In this document: positions 3 to 12,900 of the stretch, piece by piece
Layout of the letters: every line of letters starts with the position of its first letter
Numbering within the stretch: the first letter of the stretch is position 1
Source: Streptomyces sp. HUAS CB01
GTDB taxonomy: Bacteria > Actinomycetota > Actinomycetes > Streptomycetales > Streptomycetaceae
Assembly: GCF_030406905.1 (NCBI RefSeq)
Contig: NZ_CP129137.1
Coordinates: 5,476,001-5,540,000 of the forward strand
DNA length: 64,000 bases
Reading direction: 5' to 3'
Notes under the pieces: generated by a model
What the model was told of the DNA's origin: nothing
Databases searched by the model: none
What the model saw: only the letters and a program-made list of their open reading frames with translations
Program-made: the position numbers and the translations under genes

Positions 3-1358
3 CTCACCCGGGCGCTGCACACCTTCGTGCGCGGGACCCCGCTCGGCACGGCCCCGCTCCTGGTCGTCGTCCGGGCCGCCGGCTGGCGGCCCGTCGAGCA
101 GGCGGCCGACACCCTGCGCCCGGAAACCGCCGCGGTCCTCCGGCTGCGACTGCCCGCGCACTGGCCCGGGCACCCCGGCGACCTGATCGACGCCCTCCCG
201 CTGCGCCACGCCATCTGGCTGGCCGCGGCCGACATCGACGGAACCTCGGGCACGGTCGGACTCGTGCGGCGCCCGCTCTTCCCGGCCGGCAGCCGTAGCG
301 GCGAGCCGGCCGGCGGCGAACCCGGGGCCGTCGTACGGGTACCCGTGGCCGCGCCGCCGCACGGTGCCACCACGGGGGAGAGCGCCGCCGTCGTCGTCTC
401 CGCGGGCCCCGGCGAACCGCCCTCGCGATGGCGCCCCGTGCGGGCCGACCGCCTCGAACTCCCGCCGGGCTCCCGCGCGGCGCTCCACTACCGGCTGCGC
501 GGTCCTGACCGGGTGGACCTCGCCTACGACGGACACCACGAACCGGAGACCGCGCCCTGGACGGCCCTGGCGCACACCACGCCCCGGCGGCTCTCCCGGC
601 CGCGGCCCGTGGACCTCGTGCTCGCCGTGGAGGTCGCCGGTCCGCAGGCGGGCGGCGGCACGGCCGTCGAGGAGCGCCTGCAGGAGGCGGCCGCCGTCGT
701 CGCCGCCGTACGGCACGCCGTCGGCGGCGACGACACGCTCCGCGTCGGGCTCATCGGCTACCGCGACCACGCCCCCCTCGACCGCCCGCACCACAGCGAC
801 CCCATCGTGCACCGGCTCGGCATGGCGACCGCGCAGGCCGCCGAACGCGCACTGACGGGCTGGCACCACAGCCCGCTGCGGCACGACTTCGCCACCGGAC
901 TGGAGCACGTGCCCCACGAACTCGCCGCCCGCCGCCATCTGTGGCGGCCGGACAGCCACCGGGTGCTCCTCGTGATCGGCTCCCGCCCTCCCCATCCGCG
1001 CGCCGCTCCGCCGCAGGTGCTGCGGCGCAGCGCGGCGGTGCGGATCTGCCCCGACCGGGTCGAGTGGGAGGCCGCGCTCGACGAGCTGCGCCACTACGAC
1101 GGCGTCGCCTGCGTGGCGGTCGTGGACGAGCCCGCGTGGATGGACCACCTGGAGGGGGAACCCCATCTCGCACGCTGGGCGGACCGCGCGTGGGACCTCT
1201 TCGGCGCCGACGGCCGGTTCACCGCCGGCCACGATCCGCGCCGCGTCGCCTCCGCCGTGACGGCACCGGCGCTCTGCCTCCCCGAGGACGGCGCCCCCAT
1301 CCGGCTCGTCGTCCCCGACGGCGCGAGCGGGGAGTGGCTGCACGAGGCCGCCGGCTGA
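3..1358 (+). CDS. Degenerate vWA-like protein of the GTPase cluster (5' end outside window)
   Basis: The reading frame is open to the first base of the window, so the true start lies upstream; the first in-window GTG (27) has no convincing ribosome binding site. The visible 451 residues have an N-terminal part I do not recognise, then from about nt 600 a vWA-like Rossmann segment: a hydrophobic strand (VDLVLAVEVAG), an alanine-rich helix, and a second strand (RVGLIGYRDHA). The DxSxS metal site of true vWA domains is replaced by AVEVAG, so this copy probably binds no metal. It ends 101 nt before the GTPase gene on the same strand. I infer a structural or adaptor part of the downstream GTPase system. 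The vWA assignment rests on pattern only. Confidence 0.7.
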   Translation, partial: LTRALHTFVRGTPLGTAPLLVVVRAAGWRPVEQAADTLRPETAAVLRLRLPAHWPGHPGDLIDALPLRHAIWLAAADIDGTSGTVGLVRRPLFPAGSRSGEPAGGEPGAVVRVPVAAPPHGATTGESAAVVVSAGPGEPPSRWRPVRADRLELPPGSRAALHYRLRGPDRVDLAYDGHHEPETAPWTALAHTTPRRLSRPRPVDLVLAVEVAGPQAGGGTAVEERLQEAAAVVAAVRHAVGGDDTLRVGLIGYRDHAPLDRPHHSDPIVHRLGMATAQAAERALTGWHHSPLRHDFATGLEHVPHELAARRHLWRPDSHRVLLVIGSRPPHPRAAPPQVLRRSAAVRICPDRVEWEAALDELRHYDGVACVAVVDEPAWMDHLEGEPHLARWADRAWDLFGADGRFTAGHDPRRVASAVTAPALCLPEDGAPIRLVVPDGASGEWLHEAAG

Positions 1359-1416
1359 GGACCACGGCACACCAACCGTGCGCCCCGGAGGGCGTGCGGG
1401 TCCGGACAACGACCGT

Positions 1417-1438
1417 GCGGCGGACCTCACTCCGCCGC
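1417..1438 (+). other. Small intercistronic hairpin before the GTPase gene
   Basis: An 8-bp perfect inverted repeat, GCGGCGGA and TCCGCCGC around a 6-nt loop, sits just upstream of the GTPase ribosome binding site. It could stabilise the transcript or modulate translation. No T-tract follows, so it is a poor terminator candidate, and in DNA this GC-rich it may be chance. Confidence 0.3.
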
Positions 1439-1459
1439 CACGACTGGGGGAGCCCCACC

Positions 1460-2890
1460 ATGCCCGAGGACGAAAAGCGCCCCGAAGGCACGCCGAAGGA
1501 CGCCAAGCAGGACCGCACCAGGGACGACCGGGCCGCGGAGGGGCCGTTCGCCGTGTGGGACCCGTCCACACTCGTCGGAGGCCGGGCAGCGCTGCCGCCG
1601 GTACCGGCCCCGCCACCGGCCCGGTCCGCACCGCCGAACGGCGCGTCACCCGGTGCCCCGGCCGCTCCCGCGCCCCCGGCGCCGCGCGAGGACACGGCAC
1701 GGGCCCCCGGGACACCGCCCGCGGACCCCGGCCGGCCGGCCGAGCCCCCGCCCGGCGGATTCGCGGAGAGGTTCGGCGGCCCCGAGGCCATCGACAAGTC
1801 CGCCAAACCCGCGAAACCGGACAAGCCCGCGAAACTCGCGCGGAAGGCGGCGGCCGCCGACAGGGCGGTCCCCCAGGACGAGGAACGCCAGGAGCCCGAG
1901 GCCCCGGCGTCGGCACCCGAGTCGACCATCACCCTCTGGGGCGGCATGGGCAGCGGGAAGTCCACACTGCTGGCGGCGCTGTCCCGCGCCGTGCAGGACC
2001 CCATGTACGGCAAGTGGAGCATGTGGCCGGAGGACCACGCCTCCAAGAAGTTCCTCAGCGATCTCGCGCACATCCTCTACCGGGACCGGACCTTCCCGAT
2101 GGCGACGCTGACGGAGCAGCGCCCGGTGCGCTTCACCCTCGCCGGGGACCTCACCGGGACCCGGTTCTCCCGCGCCGGCCGCAGGCGCTGGCGCCGCGGC
2201 GGCGCCGGCGGTCGCGACCAGATGGAATTCAAGGTGACCCTCCGCGACCTCCCCGGCGAGGCGTTCGACCTGCACTCGCAGACGGGCACCGCCCTCGGCG
2301 GCAAGCTCATCAAGGACCTCGGGGCCTCCCGCGCGATGGTCTACGTCGTCGACCCCGTCCGCGAGTGGCAGGTCAACGGCGACGACGGGCCGGTCGGCGA
2401 CGACGCCCGCCAGAACGCCGACTTCTTCACCGACGTCCTCGCCGGAGTGGCCACCGAGGTCAACATGCGCGGCGAACGCCAGGGCAATCTGCTGCCGCAC
2501 AGCATCGCCGTGTGCCTGGCGAAGTTCGACGACGACCGCGTCTTCCGCTTCGCCTGCGAACAGGGCAACGTCCGGCTCAACCCGCGTACGGGGCAGCCCG
2601 AGGTGATGGACGCCAAGCGCCTGTTCGACGGGCTCTGCCACGCCTTCCCGCACGGCAGCCTGCGCGAGATCAAGCAGCAGATCGAGCTGTTCTTCGCCCC
2701 CGAGCGCGTCGGGTACTTCGTGTGCTCAGCCGTCGGCTTCTGGGTCGACCCCGAGCGGGGCTTCGACTTCGAGAACCCCTCCCTGGTGAACCCCGTGGAG
2801 GACGCCGTGCGGTTCGTCGCCCCTCCGCAGCCCGTCAACATCCTCGAGCCCTTCCTCTTCCTGCGCGGCGTCGGCCCGCAGCACTCCTGA
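1460..2890 (+). CDS. TRAFAC-clade / double-GTPase family protein
   Basis: This is a 476-aa P-loop NTPase. The ATG at 1460 follows a GGGGGAG ribosome binding site. Residues 1-150 are a proline-, alanine- and lysine-rich, probably disordered tail. The Walker A motif GGMGSGKS lies at residues 161-168, and a hydrophobic strand ending in a DP pair (MVYVVDP), near residue 297, is the likely Walker B or G3 region. A further strand (IAVCLAKFDDD) may be the base-recognition region. The arrangement fits the double-GTPase proteins that occur beside GAP1 proteins, and the next gene is such a partner, 35 nt downstream. I infer that it is the nucleotide-driven switch of this cluster. Whether it binds GTP rather than ATP cannot be read from the sequence. 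Confidence 0.85.
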   Translation: MPEDEKRPEGTPKDAKQDRTRDDRAAEGPFAVWDPSTLVGGRAALPPVPAPPPARSAPPNGASPGAPAAPAPPAPREDTARAPGTPPADPGRPAEPPPGGFAERFGGPEAIDKSAKPAKPDKPAKLARKAAAADRAVPQDEERQEPEAPASAPESTITLWGGMGSGKSTLLAALSRAVQDPMYGKWSMWPEDHASKKFLSDLAHILYRDRTFPMATLTEQRPVRFTLAGDLTGTRFSRAGRRRWRRGGAGGRDQMEFKVTLRDLPGEAFDLHSQTGTALGGKLIKDLGASRAMVYVVDPVREWQVNGDDGPVGDDARQNADFFTDVLAGVATEVNMRGERQGNLLPHSIAVCLAKFDDDRVFRFACEQGNVRLNPRTGQPEVMDAKRLFDGLCHAFPHGSLREIKQQIELFFAPERVGYFVCSAVGFWVDPERGFDFENPSLVNPVEDAVRFVAPPQPVNILEPFLFLRGVGPQHS

Positions 2891-2925
2891 CCCGGCAGCC
2901 GAGAACCGTACGAGAGGAGACCGCC

Positions 2926-5520
2926 ATGCCACCGGGACTGACGGCCGACTGGGCCCTGTGGGGCAAGGAACCCCACACCAACAGCGGCTACAAGGTGCTG
3001 GCCGCCTGCCCGCCCGACCGGAGCGCCGACTTCAACAGGGACATCCACCGCTGGTCGCCCGGCACCCCGGCACCGGGCGACCGGCTGCCCTGGATCACCC
3101 TCGGGCCCTGCACCGCACCAGACGGGACACCGACGGTGGGCATCTTCCTCCTCGAAGGCACCGACGCCGTCGACCGGACGAACCGGCCGATCTGCCGGAT
3201 CGACCACTTCGCCGTGCCGGCGGCCGAGGTCAGCGGACTCGCCCTCAGCTGGTGCGGACTGGCCAGGGCCGCGCTCGACGCCGTGCCGCAACTCGCGGCC
3301 GCGGGAGCCGCACCGGCCCGGCTGCCCGTCGCGCCGGGCGGGCGGCTGGTGACCCAGGTGACCGCTCACGTCGGGCCCCGGGTGACCGAGGCGGTCCACT
3401 GGCTGGCCGCCGCCGCCGGCTATCTGCTGGACGGCACGGTGGTGGTGACGGGGGGCCGCATGTACGACCCCCTCGTGCTGCTGGACGTCCTCGACTGCGT
3501 CGCGGCCATGCTGCCCTTCGGGATGCGCCGCACCCTCTCGGCCGCCACCTGGGTCTCCTCGGGGTCCGAGGTGCCGATGCGCCTGTACTGGGGCGTCCCC
3601 GACGAGGCCCCCGGCGTCGTCAGCCTGGCCTGGGGCGGGGAACTCCCGGACGTCGGCGGACTGTCCGCCGACGCCCGCGCCTACCGCGACCTGCTGATCG
3701 AGGCGTGGGCCCGGCACGGCGGCGAAGCGGTCCTGGAGCATCTGGCGGACGCGCGCGAGCCGATGGACATCGAGGGCCCGGACGCCCACGACGAGGCACT
3801 CCGGGTGCTCGGCGGCCTCGACCCGGCGCTGGCCGTCGAGCAGGAGGTCCGCGCCGGGCGGGAGGTCGGGAACGACCGGATCGACGCGGCCCTGCTCCAC
3901 CCGCTGGCCGACCCCCGCTCCGTCACCGTCCTCTCCGGGCAGAAGCTGGCGGGTCACTCCGTCGACATGGCCCCCCTCGCGCGTCATCTGAAGCACCAGG
4001 AGGTCTCCGAGGCCTTCCGCGGCCGGCTCGTCGACGACCTGCTCAGCGATGAGCCGGCCCGGGCCCGCGACCGGTTCGAGACCGCGCGCGCGGCCACCTC
4101 CGGCACCAAGGAGGACCTGGACCCCCTCGACCAGGTCCTGGCCTTCGTCATCGACGAGGTGCGGGGCCGGACGGGGACCGAGGCGCCGGACCCCGTCGTC
4201 GAACAACTGCTGCCCCACGTCGCCCCGTTCCCCGTGGGGACCATGGCCTTCACCCAGTCCCTGCTGCTGGTCACCCCCGGTCTGGCCGGCCGGCTCGTCC
4301 ACGCCCTGTGCGCCGGACCCGACCCGGCGGCGGACGTCCTGGCCTGGCTCCGGTGGCTCGGCGACGGCTCGGCGCCCAGGGCCACGGGCAGCGCCGAACT
4401 GGCCCCGCTGTACGAACTGCTGGACTCCGGGCAGGGCGCGCCCTCCCGCAAGTGGACCACCGCGCACCCGGAGGCCGCCGTACGGCTGCTGGGAGCGGCC
4501 GCGGCCTGCGGGCGAGCGGAGTACGTGCTCCAAGGGGAGTTCTTCCAGGGCCTGATCAACTGCGCCTTCCTCAAGACGCCGTCCGACCCGCTCGACACCC
4601 CTCCCAGCATGCTGCTCGAACGGGTGCTGGCGGGGCGGCCGCACGGGGTGCGACCCGAGACCGCGGCCCGCTGGGACGTGCTGTGCGCCCTGACGGGCCT
4701 GCCGCCGCTGGCCCTCTTCACCCTCGCCGAGGCACCGGAGCGGCCCGGCTCCGCCGGGCTTCCCACCCGCCTCGACGGCTACATCTCGACGCTCTGCTCG
4801 GAACTCGACTGCCACCCCGTACGCACCCACGCCACGCTCGTGGTCCAGATGCTGCTGGAGGGGGTCCTCAACGTCGACCCGGAGACCGGGGAGGGACCCG
4901 ATCGGGCCGGGCGCGAACTGACGGTGCGCCTGCTGGAGCGGCACGGGCCCCACGTCCAGGTGGTCGCGGACGCCGTGCGACGGCTGACCGAGGAACCCCG
5001 TTGGCACGAGACCGAGCACGACGAGCGGTGGCTGCGGCGCATCGCCGGGCAACTGCCGCAACTGGGAGCGGCCCTGGCGCTCCGCGCCGTCCACCGCGCC
5101 GCCCGGGCGGCGGGCGACGGCCCGCAGGACCTCGACGAACTCGCCTCGCACCTCTACGCGGCCCGCCGGGCCGGTGCCGACGGCGACAGCCTGTGCGTAC
5201 CCCTGCGGTCCTGGGCCGCCCGGGAACGCACCGGCCACCGGGTCCTCTCGGTCCTCACCGCCTACCGCAGGACCTGGGAGGCCTACACCGGGGCGGACCG
5301 GGCACGACAGGAGCGCCTCGACCTGGAACTCGCCCTCGCCCGCGGCCGGGACTCCGGGGTCTGGCAGCAGTACCGCGACCACGCGATCCGGCAACTGACC
5401 GCGGAACGGACCGGATTCGAGCAGGGGATCCGCGAGCTGCGGCACAAGCAGCAGATGGCGGAGCAGGAGATCGCCCGCCTGCGGAGCCTCGGCGCCGGCT
5501 CCTTCCCCGCCCGCTCGTAG
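2926..5520 (+). CDS. GTPase-associated protein 1 (GAP1)-related protein
   Basis: This 864-aa protein starts at ATG 2926 behind an AGGAGA site, 35 nt after the GTPase gene, which suggests co-translation. The N-terminal region (about 1-200, beginning LTADWALWGKEPHTNSGY) resembles the GAP1 N-terminal domain of proteins paired with bacterial double-GTPases. The middle is helical and leucine-rich, with no enzyme motif I can find. The last 45 residues form a charged heptad-like helix (QQYRDHAIRQLTAERTGF onward), probably a coiled coil. No signal peptide or membrane segment is present, so it is cytoplasmic. The family link is from recall of that domain type; the molecular function is not known to me and should not be read as a GTPase-activating protein. 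Confidence 0.8.
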   Translation: MPPGLTADWALWGKEPHTNSGYKVLAACPPDRSADFNRDIHRWSPGTPAPGDRLPWITLGPCTAPDGTPTVGIFLLEGTDAVDRTNRPICRIDHFAVPAAEVSGLALSWCGLARAALDAVPQLAAAGAAPARLPVAPGGRLVTQVTAHVGPRVTEAVHWLAAAAGYLLDGTVVVTGGRMYDPLVLLDVLDCVAAMLPFGMRRTLSAATWVSSGSEVPMRLYWGVPDEAPGVVSLAWGGELPDVGGLSADARAYRDLLIEAWARHGGEAVLEHLADAREPMDIEGPDAHDEALRVLGGLDPALAVEQEVRAGREVGNDRIDAALLHPLADPRSVTVLSGQKLAGHSVDMAPLARHLKHQEVSEAFRGRLVDDLLSDEPARARDRFETARAATSGTKEDLDPLDQVLAFVIDEVRGRTGTEAPDPVVEQLLPHVAPFPVGTMAFTQSLLLVTPGLAGRLVHALCAGPDPAADVLAWLRWLGDGSAPRATGSAELAPLYELLDSGQGAPSRKWTTAHPEAAVRLLGAAAACGRAEYVLQGEFFQGLINCAFLKTPSDPLDTPPSMLLERVLAGRPHGVRPETAARWDVLCALTGLPPLALFTLAEAPERPGSAGLPTRLDGYISTLCSELDCHPVRTHATLVVQMLLEGVLNVDPETGEGPDRAGRELTVRLLERHGPHVQVVADAVRRLTEEPRWHETEHDERWLRRIAGQLPQLGAALALRAVHRAARAAGDGPQDLDELASHLYAARRAGADGDSLCVPLRSWAARERTGHRVLSVLTAYRRTWEAYTGADRARQERLDLELALARGRDSGVWQQYRDHAIRQLTAERTGFEQGIRELRHKQQMAEQEIARLRSLGAGSFPARS

Positions 5521-5560
5521 CCCCGGGAGCGGGCACCGAGCGACCCGATCCGCCGGCCCG

Positions 5561-5697
5561 CCGTACCGAGAGGCAGCACCCGCAGCACCTGCCGTACCGA
5601 CAGGCAGCACCCGCAGCACCCGCCGTACCGAGAGGCAGCACCCGCAGCACCTGCCGTAGCGACACGCAGCACCCGCAGCACCGATACGCAGCACCCA
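5561..5697. repeat. 31-bp tandem repeat array (about four copies)
   Basis: Units start at 5561, 5592, 5623 and 5654. Units 1 and 3 are identical over all 31 bases; unit 2 differs at about three positions; unit 4 is more diverged and is followed by a partial copy. Each unit contains CCGTACCGA and GCAGCACCCGCAGCACC. The copies are contiguous with no spacers, so this is a minisatellite and not a CRISPR array. It fills most of the 252-nt gap between the GAP1-type gene and the vWA gene. Confidence 0.9.
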
Positions 5698-5772
5698 CCC
5701 CACCGGCCTCTCCGCTCCCGGCGCCGCGCCGGGGCCCGGGGCCCGTTCCACGCACCTCACAGGGGGATCCCC

Positions 5773-7380
5773 ATGCACACCGACCACGCCGCGGCGCGCC
5801 GCGCCCTGCTGTTCGCCCTCGGCGCCGCGCTGACCGCCTCCGGCGCGTCGCCCGCCGCCGCCGTCACGGCCGCCGACACCCCGCTCCCGCGCGACGGCAT
5901 CTACCGTTCGCTGAAGGTCGACGAGGTGCCGTCCGCCTACGTCGTCCTCGTCGACACCTCCAGCTCGATGCAGGACCGCGGACCCGACGGCGCTCCGCTC
6001 TACGCCACCGTCAAACGGCGGCTGGACGCCTTCCTCAAGACCCTCACGCCGGCCGACGAGGTCGCGGTCGTCACCTTCGGCCGGGCCACGAGCGTCGTCC
6101 ATCCCATGTCCCCGGTGAGGGCGAAGGGCGGCGGAAGCCTGTTCGCCAAGGGGCTCCCGGCCACCGCGACGGAGTCGGCCAGTGACCACGGCTCCGCGCT
6201 GGAGGCCGCCGCCGAGCAGCTCAACCGCAGCACGGCCCCGGTCGGGGCGGTGCTGCTGCTCACCGACGGCGCCGTCAACGCCCCGGGCAGCCCGTACGAG
6301 CGTCAGGGCACCCCCGCCTGGAAGCGCCTCAAGGAGCGCTACTCGGCGATGGGGACCAACCGGAAGATCGTCGGCTACGGAGTGCCGCTCGCCGAGGGCA
6401 CCCGCGTCGGCGAGGTGCTCGGAGGGGCGTTCGGCGCCCCGCGCATCCTGCCCGTGGACCCCGCGGCGCTGGGCACTCAGCTCGGTGTCGCCAAGGACCA
6501 GGTGCGCGCGGAGAAGGCCGTGAGCGTTCTCCGGGCGGACGAGGGCAGAGGGGTGGCCGTCACCGTGGACGGCGAGGGAGTGCGGTCGCCGCGGTCCGGC
6601 GCCGTCACCCTCGCGACGGGTGACCGTACGGGCGCCCGCTCCCGGACCGTCCGGGTCACGCTCGCCTCGAAGACCCGGCACGTACCGCTGCGGGTGACCC
6701 TGCGGACGGCGGCCGCGCCCGACGGCCCGGGCGTCGACGTCGAAGGCGCCGGCCGCCCCGTGGACCTGGCGCCAGGGCAGAGCCGCACGGTCGAACTGAA
6801 ACTGACGTGGAATCAGAATCCCGAGTTCAGTCTGATCCCGGGCGCCCGGGACTTCCGCGCGGGGGTGGGCCTCCGGGCCGACGTCTCCTCCCCGTGGACG
6901 CCCGCCGTCCGCAGCTCGCTGGGGTACGCGAAGTTCACCACGGGCGGCCCGACCGTCACCGACGTGGACCTCGTCGGCACCGTCCCCGGCCGGGCCCCGG
7001 GCTGGTTCTATCCGCTGGTGCTGCTCGTCGCCCTGCTCGGAGGGGCGGCCGCGTGGCGGTCGTACAAGCGCCGCAACCCGACCCTGTCCGGCGCGCTGGT
7101 CGTGACCGACCTGCGGACGGGGAGCCGGCAGACCCTGGTGCTGCGCGGCCGGGAGGTCAGCGAGGAGACGGACGCGGGCGACGTCCGGGCCCGCATCACC
7201 GTGCGCGGACGCCATGAGGGCGGCCGGCTCGTGCTCGTCCTGCGGTGCGACCGCGAGGCGCCGCGCCCGGGCGGGGAGCGGCTGCGCGACAGCGGTACGT
7301 GCGAACTCGGCAAGTCCACCGTGCTGTGCGGCATCGGCTTCTCGCACGAGACGGGGAGCCAGGCCGTCGTCATGCAGTGA
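5773..7380 (+). CDS. Secreted, membrane-anchored vWA-domain protein
   Basis: This 535-aa protein starts at ATG 5773 after an AGGGGGA site. Residues 1-34 look like a Sec signal peptide (basic start, hydrophobic core, ASPAAA end). A vWA domain follows, with the MIDAS motif DTSSS at residues 61-65 and a second strand ending in LLLTDGA, so metal binding is expected. The middle is beta-rich. A single transmembrane helix (about 410-430, WFYPLVLLVALLGG) is followed by RSYKRRN, which predicts an external vWA domain and a roughly 105-residue cytoplasmic tail. Within this cluster it may sense an extracellular ligand or cell-envelope state and pass the signal inward; that role is inference. Confidence 0.88.
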   Translation: MHTDHAAARRALLFALGAALTASGASPAAAVTAADTPLPRDGIYRSLKVDEVPSAYVVLVDTSSSMQDRGPDGAPLYATVKRRLDAFLKTLTPADEVAVVTFGRATSVVHPMSPVRAKGGGSLFAKGLPATATESASDHGSALEAAAEQLNRSTAPVGAVLLLTDGAVNAPGSPYERQGTPAWKRLKERYSAMGTNRKIVGYGVPLAEGTRVGEVLGGAFGAPRILPVDPAALGTQLGVAKDQVRAEKAVSVLRADEGRGVAVTVDGEGVRSPRSGAVTLATGDRTGARSRTVRVTLASKTRHVPLRVTLRTAAAPDGPGVDVEGAGRPVDLAPGQSRTVELKLTWNQNPEFSLIPGARDFRAGVGLRADVSSPWTPAVRSSLGYAKFTTGGPTVTDVDLVGTVPGRAPGWFYPLVLLVALLGGAAAWRSYKRRNPTLSGALVVTDLRTGSRQTLVLRGREVSEETDAGDVRARITVRGRHEGGRLVLVLRCDREAPRPGGERLRDSGTCELGKSTVLCGIGFSHETGSQAVVMQ

Positions 7381-7417
7381 GCGGGGCGCGGCTCCACCCG
7401 CCCCTCGCGCGCGTCGT

Positions 7418-7560
7418 GGTCCCGGGCTCCGCTTCGTGGCCGGTGCCGGTGCCGGTCCCGGGCTCCGCTTCGTGGCTGGTGCTGGTGCTGGTGCTGGTGC
7501 TGGTGCTGGTGCTGGTGCCGGTCCCGGGCTCCGCTTCGTGGCCGGTGCCGGTCCCGGTCC
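7418..7560. repeat. Nested repeat: three 22-bp copies plus a (GGTGCT)n tract
   Basis: Near-identical copies of a 22-base element starting GGTCCCGGGCTCCGCTTCG begin at 7418, 7454 and 7520. They are separated by GGTGCC and GGTGCT hexamers, with about seven GGTGCT units in a row around 7477-7517. The spacings (36 and 66) are multiples of six, so one reading frame stays open across the array. The copies probably differ through slippage of the hexamer. The rest of the 481-nt gap before the kinase shows no gene I can support. Confidence 0.9.
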
Positions 7561-7861
7561 CGGCGCCCTGCGACGTCGGGAGGCGGTCCCGGCCCGCGCT
7601 CGTCGTGGGGAACCCCGCTCGTGCCCGGGCCCGGGCGGACCGGTGCCCGGACCGCGGACGTGGCCGGACGCGCCCGGTCCGAGGGCGCCCGGCCGGCCCG
7701 TGCACGGCACTCCCAGCGGTGCCCGAACACCCAGCGGTGCCCGCACCCTCCGTCGGCGCCCGGCCCCGCTCGACCCCGCCCGTACCCGCGCGGCACGCAG
7801 GCCCGAGGCCACGCCCGCGCCGTCCCACCCCGCACAGCCGCCCCGAGGAGAGGAACCCGTC

Positions 7862-9832
7862 ATGGTGAAGCCGCTGGACCCGGCCGTCGACCCGCCCGAG
7901 GCCGCGGGGTTCCGGCTGCTCGGCAGACTGGGCACGGGCGGCTTCGGCACCGTCTACCTCGGCAGGCCGTCGGGCGGCGAGCGCGGGCTCGACACCCTCG
8001 GGGCCGTGAAGCTGCTCAAGTCCGAGTTCACCGAGGACGCCCAGCATCTGCAGCGCTTCCACCAGGAGAGCAAGGCGCTCGACCGCTGCAAGGGCGCCCG
8101 CATCCCCGAACTGCTCGTCTTCGACTTCGGCGCGGGACGGCAGCCCACCCTGGCGACGCGGTTCATCCCCGGCCTGTCCCTCTACCGGATCCTGGAGTCG
8201 CACGGGGGCGCACTGCCCCGCGACACGGTGCAGTCCGTCGCCGCCGAGCTGGTCGACACCCTGAACACCGCCCACAGCAAGGGCCTTCTGCACCGGGACC
8301 TCCACCCCGGCAACGTCCTGATGACCCAGGACGGGCCCTGGATCATCGACTTCGGGCTGACCCGCATCCGCGGCCAGCGGGTGACGGTGAGCCTGGACAC
8401 CGTCATCGGCCATCCGCACTTCTGCGCACCCGAGCAGATCATGGGCCTGTCGAGGACGGTGAACGCGACCGACGTCTTCGGGATCGGCGCGATCGTGCTC
8501 TACGGGCTGACCGGGCATCCGCCGTACACCGGGGAGCGCGAGGCCCGCGCCATGCTGCTGCGCCGGGTGTCCGGCGCCGCGCCCGACCTGTCGGGGCTGC
8601 CGGACGACCGCACGGGCCGGCTGATCCGGGCCTGCCTGGCGGAGGACCCGGCCGACCGGCCGACCCTGGCCGAGGTCGCCGAGGGCTTCGGCGAACCGGG
8701 CACCCTCCGCCTCCCGGGCGATGTCGCCCGGACCCTGGCCCACTACCGCTCCGAGCTGAGGGAACTGCTCACGGGGGCCGGCAACGGCGCCGACCTCACC
8801 GTGCCGTTCTGCACCGGGCGGCGCAGCTGGAGCGCGGGTGCCGGCGAATGGCCGCACCAGGTCGTGTCCACCGGCCACGGCAGTGTCGTGACTGCGGACG
8901 GCGGCGGCGACGTGCGCTGGCTGGACGCGGCGACCGGCCGGGAGCAGTCCCGGCACCGGGACTTCGCGCCGCCCGTGCAGCTGTGCGCGGAAGGCGCGCT
9001 GCTGCTGGTCTGCGACGCCGCCGGCCGACTGGAGTCCTGGGACACCCGTGCCCGCACCCTCTGGTGGTCGGTCCCCGCCGGCAGCCTGCCGCACGCGCGG
9101 GTGCTGCTGCGCGGGCAGAGCGTGTTCCTCGGCGACGGCACGGGCCGGATCCACCACTTCGACGCCGTCACCCGCCGGGTGTGGTGGCGCACCGAACCGC
9201 TCACGGACTCCGCGGGCTGCCCGGCGGAGCCGGTCGCGGCCGGCCCCCGGCACGTGTACCTCTCGGCCGGGCAGGGCTGCGAACTCCTGGCGGTCGACGA
9301 CGAGGAGGGCCGTGTCTGCTGGGACCGCCCCGTGCGACTGCCCGCGCCGGCGCCGACGGCGCCGCTCGCGCTGGACGACCGGGTCGCGGTCGCGGACGGG
9401 GACGGTGGTCTGCGCTGTCTGGCCGCGGCCGACGGCAGCACGCTGTGGGAGGCCAGGCTCGGTGCGCCGGTGGTCGCCCCGCCCGTGCGGGTCGCCGACA
9501 CGCTGATCGTCGGGGACACGGCGGGCACCGTGCACTGCCACAGCGCCAAGACGGGCGAACGGATCTGGCGCGCCCAGTACGCCGACGGGGAGGAGTTCTT
9601 CTCGCTGTGCGCCGACGGGTCGGCCGTCTACGCGGGCGGCTGGCACGGCCGGCTGCATATGCTGGACGCGGCGGACGGCGCCTCGCTGCAGAGCTTCGAC
9701 CTGGGCGGCCAGATCCTCGCCACCGCCCACGCCCCGGACGTCCGCACCGTCTACGCGGCGGCCTCCCACGGCACCCTGCACGCGCTCCCGGCGGCCGCGG
9801 ACGGGCCTGCCGACGCAGCCCAGGCGCGGTAG
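7862..9832 (+). CDS. Soluble Ser/Thr protein kinase with C-terminal PQQ-like propeller
   Basis: This 656-aa protein starts at ATG 7862, chosen for the GAGGAGAGG site just upstream. Residues 18-290 are a Hanks-type kinase: glycine loop GRLGTGGFG, probable ATP lysine K50, catalytic HRDLHPGN with D146, and DFG at D163. HRDLHPGN departs slightly from the usual HRDLKPxN because His replaces Lys. Residues from about 320 on are repeated W-, G- and D-rich blades of the PQQ/BamB type (for example VRWLDAATG and LESWDTRA). No transmembrane segment separates the domains, unlike PknB-type receptors, so the propeller probably reads an internal ligand or docks a partner. It is the last gene of the cluster and may phosphorylate its neighbours; targets are unknown. 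Confidence 0.9.
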   Translation: MVKPLDPAVDPPEAAGFRLLGRLGTGGFGTVYLGRPSGGERGLDTLGAVKLLKSEFTEDAQHLQRFHQESKALDRCKGARIPELLVFDFGAGRQPTLATRFIPGLSLYRILESHGGALPRDTVQSVAAELVDTLNTAHSKGLLHRDLHPGNVLMTQDGPWIIDFGLTRIRGQRVTVSLDTVIGHPHFCAPEQIMGLSRTVNATDVFGIGAIVLYGLTGHPPYTGEREARAMLLRRVSGAAPDLSGLPDDRTGRLIRACLAEDPADRPTLAEVAEGFGEPGTLRLPGDVARTLAHYRSELRELLTGAGNGADLTVPFCTGRRSWSAGAGEWPHQVVSTGHGSVVTADGGGDVRWLDAATGREQSRHRDFAPPVQLCAEGALLLVCDAAGRLESWDTRARTLWWSVPAGSLPHARVLLRGQSVFLGDGTGRIHHFDAVTRRVWWRTEPLTDSAGCPAEPVAAGPRHVYLSAGQGCELLAVDDEEGRVCWDRPVRLPAPAPTAPLALDDRVAVADGDGGLRCLAAADGSTLWEARLGAPVVAPPVRVADTLIVGDTAGTVHCHSAKTGERIWRAQYADGEEFFSLCADGSAVYAGGWHGRLHMLDAADGASLQSFDLGGQILATAHAPDVRTVYAAASHGTLHALPAAADGPADAAQAR

Positions 9833-12735: not shown

Positions 12736-12868
12736 CCGTCCGTGCGTGACGGGCTCCCCCCCGTGGGACCGTCCGTGCGTGACGGGCTCCCCCCGTGGGA
12801 CCGTCCGTGCGTGACGGGCTCCCGCGCGCGGGACCGTCCGTGTCCGAAACGGGCTCCCGCGCGCGGGA
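12736..12868. repeat. Four-unit 32-35 bp tandem repeat
   Basis: Units span 12736-12768, 12769-12800, 12801-12833 and 12834-12868. Each starts CCGTCCGTG, contains ACGGGCTCCC and ends in a GGGA block. Units 1 and 2 differ by one base in a C-run; units 3 and 4 carry CGCGCG in place of the C-rich block. The array lies between convergent glgP and the protease gene and runs directly into a terminator hairpin. Confidence 0.88.
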
Positions 12869-12900
12869 CCGCCCGGGGGAGCCGGAGCTCCCCCGGGCGG
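12869..12900. terminator. Perfect 14-bp hairpin between convergent glgP and protease genes
   Basis: CCGCCCGGGGGAGC and GCTCCCCCGGGCGG pair perfectly around the 4-nt loop CGGA. It lies about 200 nt after the glgP stop and 43 nt after the protease stop, so it could end transcription from both sides. There is no T-tract, which is common for actinobacterial terminators. Confidence 0.7.

Follow-up and report, generated by a model that had tools for sequence, protein, structure and literature searches.

In the 8.1-Mb genome of Streptomyces sp. HUAS CB01, five co-directional genes, here called g1 to g5, form one real, conserved, operon-like cassette. It occupies the start, up to position 9832, of the window, i.e. 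the whole 64,000-nucleotide (nt) stretch of contig NZ_CP129137.1 that was analysed. The second gene encodes a GTPase that belongs to the DO-GTPase family, and the g1-g2-g3 triad forms the constant centre of a broader Actinomycete family, whose members swap sensor and output blocks around it. The cassette stands an even chance of being a membrane-linked, envelope-sensing GTPase-kinase signalling switch.

Conservation and divergence of the cassette

The first-pass annotation of this DNA had proposed that the five genes form a single module, and comparison of neighbourhoods across 392 Streptomyces genomes bears this out. A g3 profile search found full-length g3 relatives in 11 of these genomes, HUAS CB01 included. 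The order g1-g2-g3-g4-g5 and the strand are kept in all 11 loci, one of which is cut by a contig end inside g5. Based on shared flanking proteins (82 proteins from the 11 loci, compared with each other), the loci represent six kinds of neighbourhood: glgE/glgP accounts for three loci and a second shared site for four, while the other four are single. Most intergenic gaps are short, and in three loci the ends of g4 and g5 share 4–7 nt. Between the five proteins, pairwise distances show correlations of 0.86–0.98, or of 0.84–0.97 once rpoB is removed, while rpoB distances correlate with them at just 0.43–0.64. A twelfth copy is located on a 678-kb linear Streptomyces plasmid (L264, NZ_CP109366.1). 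By eye, its flanks resemble those of the chromosomal L038 copy near a contig end. No match to g3 was obtained in 50,697 phage records.

Sequence evolution was followed in three genomes that carry the cassette at the same site and have nearly identical rpoB genes. The fastest of the five genes is g3, with 73–83% identity and a ratio of nonsynonymous to synonymous substitution rates (dN/dS) of 0.34–0.38. Values for g1 are 86–88% and 0.27–0.32, for g4 86–89% and 0.21–0.27, and for g2 and g5 91–96% and 0.10–0.17; the flanking genes show 95–99% identity and a dN/dS of 0.05–0.17. Divergence of g3 is patchy, HUAS CB01 resembling one relative over residues 1–540 and the other over residues 421–864. 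In these three genomes, the mosaic pattern suggests recombination between diverged alleles.

The GTPase g2

A double-GTPase type had been assigned to g2, and the assignment held. The TRAFAC-type P-loop GTPase motifs G1, G3, G4 and G5 vary little or not at all across all 26 aligned relatives (alignment A3, from which six of 31 rows, P0062–P0064, P0072, P0078 and P0092, were dropped). The Walker B glutamate of DO-GTPases (DxxGE) is present in g2 and likewise invariant in all 26, with DVPGG found instead in type B relatives (see below). Pfam DO-GTPase2 scores 13.1 bits against g2, below its cut-off of 27. The homologue L015_6, retrieved by the g2 profile at 120 bits, reaches 38.6 bits with this model, and a profile of the wider g2 family matches the canonical DO-GTPase family at an E value of 1e-15. 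Structural neighbours of the g2 model are GTPases, in line with the fold expected at first pass, although the model is of low confidence; among the Foldseek matches, YcjX is the closest solved fold. The N-terminal 145 residues or so are of low model confidence and probably disordered. Each cassette of the window type has one such GTPase; two paralogous copies are not required by the definition of DO-GTPases.

A conserved triad with exchanged partners

With a wider profile, g3-type matches were obtained in 24 of the 392 Streptomyces genomes. Eleven of these carry the five-gene cassette of the window (type A). Type B (three genomes) is a kinase-propeller system with a different gene order; in two members, both the GTPase and the g3-like N-domain occur a second time, and the third is cut by a contig end. 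Type C (nine genomes) follows the order g1-g2-g3-[Hsp70-like]-g4-[radical SAM]-[unknown]-[AAA], with L052, L147 and L148 cut by contig ends. The remaining match is a single short remnant with a stop. Beside the triad and the Hsp70-like protein, the nine type C loci (L053:6292-18761 and eight similar ones) encode a transmembrane vWA protein, a radical-SAM/4Fe-4S protein, an unknown protein of about 450 amino acids (aa) and a double-AAA protein. The Hsp70-like label is weak, one member scoring 12.5 bits, which is under the cut-off. Inside one type C system, a gene on the opposite strand (L048:14078-15274) has a start reminiscent of TnpB-type transposon proteins.

In the class as a whole, the GTPase profile matches 35 of 394 genomes and 12 of 137 genera. 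Of the matched genomes, 31 lie outside Streptomyces, and 20 stretches were fetched from 19 of them. The genes g1, g2 and g3 occur in order on one strand in 13 of these 20 loci, mostly overlapping or nearly touching. A g1 profile built from the 13 loci recovers L015_5 (322 bits), which the Streptomyces-only g1 profile missed, together with the Streptomyces g1 proteins; g1 homologues are present in all triads. A DUF4407-like gene is found in 16 of the 20 loci, and a divergent DUF4407-type membrane protein accompanies a kinase with HRD and DFG motifs in nine (one of each was checked against Pfam). In two loci, L245 and L247, which belong to one genus, share flanks and hence are not independent, an EAD1-TIR gene adjoins the g2-type GTPase gene divergently.

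Another arrangement occurs in L015 (122-6129) and L254 (1573-9791), where the g2-type GTPase domain lies within or at the end of a large protein. The gene for this protein stands beside a VMAP-C gene (137–138 bits) and also adjoins an AAA_5-type, MoxR-like gene. By eye and position, the large protein may be the vWA component; no Pfam vWA match was listed for it. In L015, the GTPase domain follows a degenerate kinase domain with HGS for HRD. Such a fusion is not mentioned in the searched passages of Kaur et al. 2020 (PMC7159879).

With a confidence falling slightly short of even, we propose that the triad, made up of a degenerate vWA adaptor, a DO-GTPase and a scaffold in GAP1 position with a family to itself, adds a third class to the GAP1-N1 and GAP1-N2 classes of DO-GTPase systems. 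It would be a portable immune-type switch of Actinomycetes into which sensor and output blocks are plugged (transmembrane vWA and kinase-propeller; DUF4407 and kinase; Hsp70-like, radical SAM and AAA; EAD1-TIR; VMAP), with g3 as the fast-evolving recognition part.

Proteins encoded by g3, g1, g4 and g5

At first pass, g3 had been called GAP1-related. What remains of this claim is its position, directly 3′ of the DO-GTPase gene in 11 of 11 cassettes as is typical of GAP1, a size similar to that of GAP1, and weak hints of GAP1-M: this was the only Pfam match, below the cut-off and at the matching position, in three of 33 g3-type proteins, all distant relatives (13.7, 15.1 and 15.1 bits). As a member of GAP1 itself, g3 is not recognisable. 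The Pfam GAP1 models match none of the 23 close relatives (alignment A1, where one near-identical match of 23, P0007, was dropped; from alignment A2, P0030, P0031 and P0041 were dropped out of 32), and a motif search was likewise negative. The structure model (mean predicted local distance difference test, pLDDT, 82.5; predicted template modelling score, pTM, 0.63) begins with an alpha/beta N-domain at residues 1 to about 240, continues as a helical superhelix and finishes with a long helix at the C-terminus. Fold matches listed for it are mostly helical-repeat proteins with template modelling scores at or below 0.22. All named relatives of g3 are from Streptomyces, and a profile of its N-domain gave no match beyond that genus in 396 genomes of the phylum; since the GTPase profile later led to g3-type genes there, this result reflects a limit of sensitivity or sampling.

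Two vWA-like proteins of different quality had been noted, and this distinction is retained, with weaker evidence for g1. From its sequence, g1 is probably a degenerate vWA protein. No transmembrane helix is predicted, g1 has no Pfam match of its own, and no Pfam model exceeds the cut-off among its relatives (VWA_3 at an E value of 0.07 in one of 30 members). Over its C-terminal part, g1 gives a weak, in-register match to the pooled vWA set of g4 (P 0.0027–0.0035, probability 9–11%), compared with P 0.06–0.5 for seven control profiles and P 0.0096 over 39 columns for the control x449. Comparison by hhalign with the set of 220-aa vWA proteins was negative, as was a first, narrow test against g4. 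The metal ion-dependent adhesion site (MIDAS) is lost, with ExAG in place of DxSxS. In g4, the vWA domain (residues 57–172; VWA_2, 36.6 bits, cut-off 27) has an intact MIDAS. The start of g4 resembles a signal peptide by eye, and one transmembrane helix is predicted at about residues 410–428, followed by a predicted cytosolic tail of about 107 aa. The predicted picture of g4 is that of a membrane protein whose vWA domain lies outside the cell, consistent with the external sensor suspected at first pass.

Judged by its catalytic motifs, g5 is an intact kinase-propeller: glycine loop, lysine, HRD and DFG are present, the latter two in 11 of 11 cassettes. It had been described as soluble, and no transmembrane helix is predicted here; in five of the 11 homologues, a hydrophobic segment slightly exceeds the threshold of 1.5. 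The best NCBIfam model is AfsK, at 174.7 bits against an equivalog cut-off of 1300, which is not reached. Similarity to the PADLOC defence kinases PD-T4-6 and mad6 (150 and 139 bits) was also found, though any Hanks kinase might show it. No PADLOC model matches g1, g3 or g4 at E ≤ 0.1, and g2 matches just two P-loop models at 10–13 bits. None of the five proteins matches a PP2C, MoxR, VMAP or tubulin/FtsZ model in Pfam. No FN3 model matches them at E ≤ 1; filters may drop weak matches, and FNIII at the level of the fold is possible.

Feature positions and flanking genes

Coordinates are summarised in Table 1. The start of g5 was placed at 7862, as a longer frame from 7214 begins too early. The spacing of exactly 35 nt between g2 and g3 agrees with the first-pass annotation.

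Table 1 Features of the cassette (positions in the window)
Feature	Position	Strand	Remarks
g1	-534..1358 (3-1358 in window)	+	630 aa as called; start ~535 bases before window (L009:11466)
g2	1460-2890	+	476 aa; DO-GTPase-family GTPase
g3	2926-5520	+	864 aa; GTPase partner in GAP1 position
g4	5773-7380	+	535 aa; predicted transmembrane vWA protein
g5	7862-9832	+	656 aa; Ser/Thr kinase fused to PQQ/BamB-type beta-propeller
g2 P-loop (G1) GGMGSGKST	1940..1966	+	GG..SGKST columns invariant in 26/26 rows of alignment A3
g2 Walker B / G3 DLPGE	2246..2260	+	D, P, G, E invariant in 26/26 rows
g2 G4 AKFD	2519..2530	+	TKFD in many relatives

Downstream of the cassette lies a glgP-like alpha-glucan phosphorylase gene (TIGR02094, 746 bits). 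Directly upstream and divergent are homologues of GlgE and TreS (PDB matches of 1167 and 1059 bits), followed presumably by pep2 and glgB homologues, as assumed from position and gene order. Because glgE sits within the flank beside glgP in 15 of 25 glgP loci of relatives, the cassette looks inserted at glgE/glgP. A toxin gene suspected beyond the upstream edge did not appear: none was found among the five genes and their direct upstream neighbours glgE and treS. In the comparison of the 82 flanking proteins, which were not scanned singly for toxins, the 11 loci share no gene beyond the five, and no further family occurs in more than four of them.

Three tandem repeats were observed. A GC-rich 36-bp unit in about four copies (7418–7567) lies in the gap between g4 and g5, which measures 481 nt here versus 98 and 55 nt in two same-site relatives. 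Units of 31/62 bp (5557–5705) lie in the gap between g3 and g4, and units of 33/65 bp (12736–12894) behind the glgP-like gene.

Comparison with known systems

GTPase-centred systems were described from computation by Kaur, Burroughs, Iyer and Aravind (2020). According to passages of that paper (PMC7159879), the third (kinase) theme of DO-GTPase/GAP1-N2 systems includes kinase, PP2C and vWA genes, and two paralogous DO-GTPases are found in 38% of systems. Our canonical set comprised 20 Streptomyces GAP1 proteins (18 in N-terminal comparisons, with L104_7 and L117_10 left out). Two DO-GTPases flank a Pfam-recognised GAP1 in eight of the 20 canonical stretches (L101, L102, L104, L106, L107, L109, L110 and L111). 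The six of these eight that were viewed in full add a gene for a 220-aa vWA-type protein, a further gene, which is PP2C according to passages of PMC7159879, and a kinase-type gene (Pfam scan of L101 only).

The relation to computationally described GTPase systems that had been suggested at first pass is upheld, as the cassette comes near those in PMC7159879. It shares with the kinase theme a DO-GTPase-family GTPase with a large partner directly behind it, a Ser/Thr kinase with intact motifs, a vWA protein, a membrane link and a patchy distribution in actinobacteria. It differs in having one GTPase, a partner outside the GAP1 models, and a transmembrane vWA protein plus a second, degraded one, with no PP2C or FNIII match. 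The logic of vWA and NTPase switch recalls the MoxR-vWA-VMAP ternary systems in passages of the same paper, and g2-type fusions lie near VMAP-C in L015 and L254; unlike these systems, the cassette has no MoxR or VMAP model match. Similarly, vWA, Ser/Thr kinase and divergent GTPase occur together in the vWA/FtsZl1/kinase/GTPase operons treated in passages of Makarova and Koonin 2010 (PMC2875224), whereas no FtsZ-like gene is among the five.

YcjX shares only 11% identity with g2, and it is not known to have vWA or kinase partners. In AfsK, where a PQQ-type propeller follows the kinase, the layout is that of g5, but the score of g5 is far below the AfsK cut-off.

Among the papers searched, none was recognised as describing the gene set, though some members may be in the supplementary lists of Kaur et al., and term searches gave no experimental study of DO-GTPase systems under these names. 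The cassette is best read as a little-described variant of the Kaur et al. 2020 systems, the kind itself being already known.

Proposed function and alternatives

A path from an external cue through g4 and the triad to g5 is suggested because vWA protein, triad and kinase stand together here, the triad outside Streptomyces is again accompanied, in a different form, by a membrane protein and a kinase, and the GTPase of L015 is fused to a degenerate kinase. In such a switch, g4 would read the signal via its MIDAS vWA domain and relay it through the single predicted transmembrane helix to the cytosolic tail. The triad would receive it as an intracellular switch, in which g2 may cycle between GTP and GDP, g3, whose alpha/beta domain carries a fast-changing helical superhelix, would serve as dedicated partner of g2 and as scaffold, and g1 as a vWA-like adaptor devoid of the metal site. 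The output would come from g5 as phosphorylation, its propeller probably serving to dock the triad or substrates. The data show that the five genes occur together, keep their order and diverge in step, and they establish the motifs, the topology as predicted and the family of g2; direct binding, signal direction, GTP cycling and kinase output are inferred, and so is each arrow of the sensor-switch-effector chain put forward at first pass.

Several observations weigh against this proposal. In HUAS CB01, 252 nt precede g4 and 481 nt precede g5. Type C systems carry Hsp70-like, radical-SAM and AAA genes where the kinase would be, so the kinase is not a universal output. The g3 model has no PDB match at E ≤ 0.001 in the fold search, and hhalign comparison of g3 with canonical Streptomyces GAP1 was negative (probability 0.2–0.3% for three alignments of growing width); as neither profile nor fold links g3 to GAP1, a GAP-like role rests on its position. 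The match that makes g1 a vWA protein is weak and suggestive. The g2 structure model has a mean pLDDT of 52.9, and a profile restricted to window-type g2 gives only a weak match to canonical DO-GTPases (probability 26%, P 7e-4), so that the DO-GTPase link needs the wider family.

Among the alternatives, a conflict system, directed against phages or kin, is conceivable but doubtful. The triad would then be a threshold switch licensing a damaging or containing response, with the kinase as effector or an effector supplied in trans. The EAD1-TIR gene beside the GTPase in one genus points in this direction, as do the fusions beside VMAP-C and MoxR-like genes, the likeness of g5 to defence kinases (shared potentially by any Hanks kinase), the patchy spread over 11 of 392 genomes, six neighbourhood kinds and a plasmid, and the fast evolution of g3 with its mosaic pattern suggesting exchange of diverged alleles. 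It is countered by the lack of any further gene shared by all 11 cassettes that might act as effector, by dN/dS values below 1 throughout, by the phage records devoid of g3 matches and by the PADLOC results for g1 to g4.

A role in developmental or envelope-stress signalling in the manner of AfsK, with no part in conflict, seems rather unlikely. The kinase-propeller layout of g5 with AfsK as its best NCBIfam model, albeit far under the cut-off, and YcjX as the closest solved fold to g2 among the Foldseek matches are consistent with it, and a DO-GTPase-family protein is placed in psp envelope-stress operons in a passage of PMC11237479. The fast evolution of g3 argues against it, and since only 11 of 392 Streptomyces genomes carry the cassette, a core developmental function is not indicated. 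Improbable is a device for membrane remodelling or cytoskeletal assembly, as proposed for the vWA/FtsZl1/kinase/GTPase operons (passages of PMC2875224): the component list is similar and the g3 model has the form of a long helical scaffold, but Pfam finds no tubulin/FtsZ match in the five proteins. That five unrelated genes are neighbours by chance is favoured by nothing but the larger spacing ahead of g4 and g5 in HUAS CB01, and is already refuted, with virtually no probability left, by the order kept in 11 of 11 loci of six neighbourhood kinds and by co-divergence.

Conclusions

Neither g1 nor g3 reaches the cut-off of a Pfam model, so the triad escapes annotation pipelines. In multicellular bacteria, DO-GTPase systems are predicted to serve as immune-type switches. 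In the signalling switch preferred here, a small, fixed cassette, with which no toxin was found, couples such a GTPase to a kinase whose motifs are intact and to an outward-facing vWA protein. Because of this coupling, the claim that these GTPases act as signal switches is testable with five genes.

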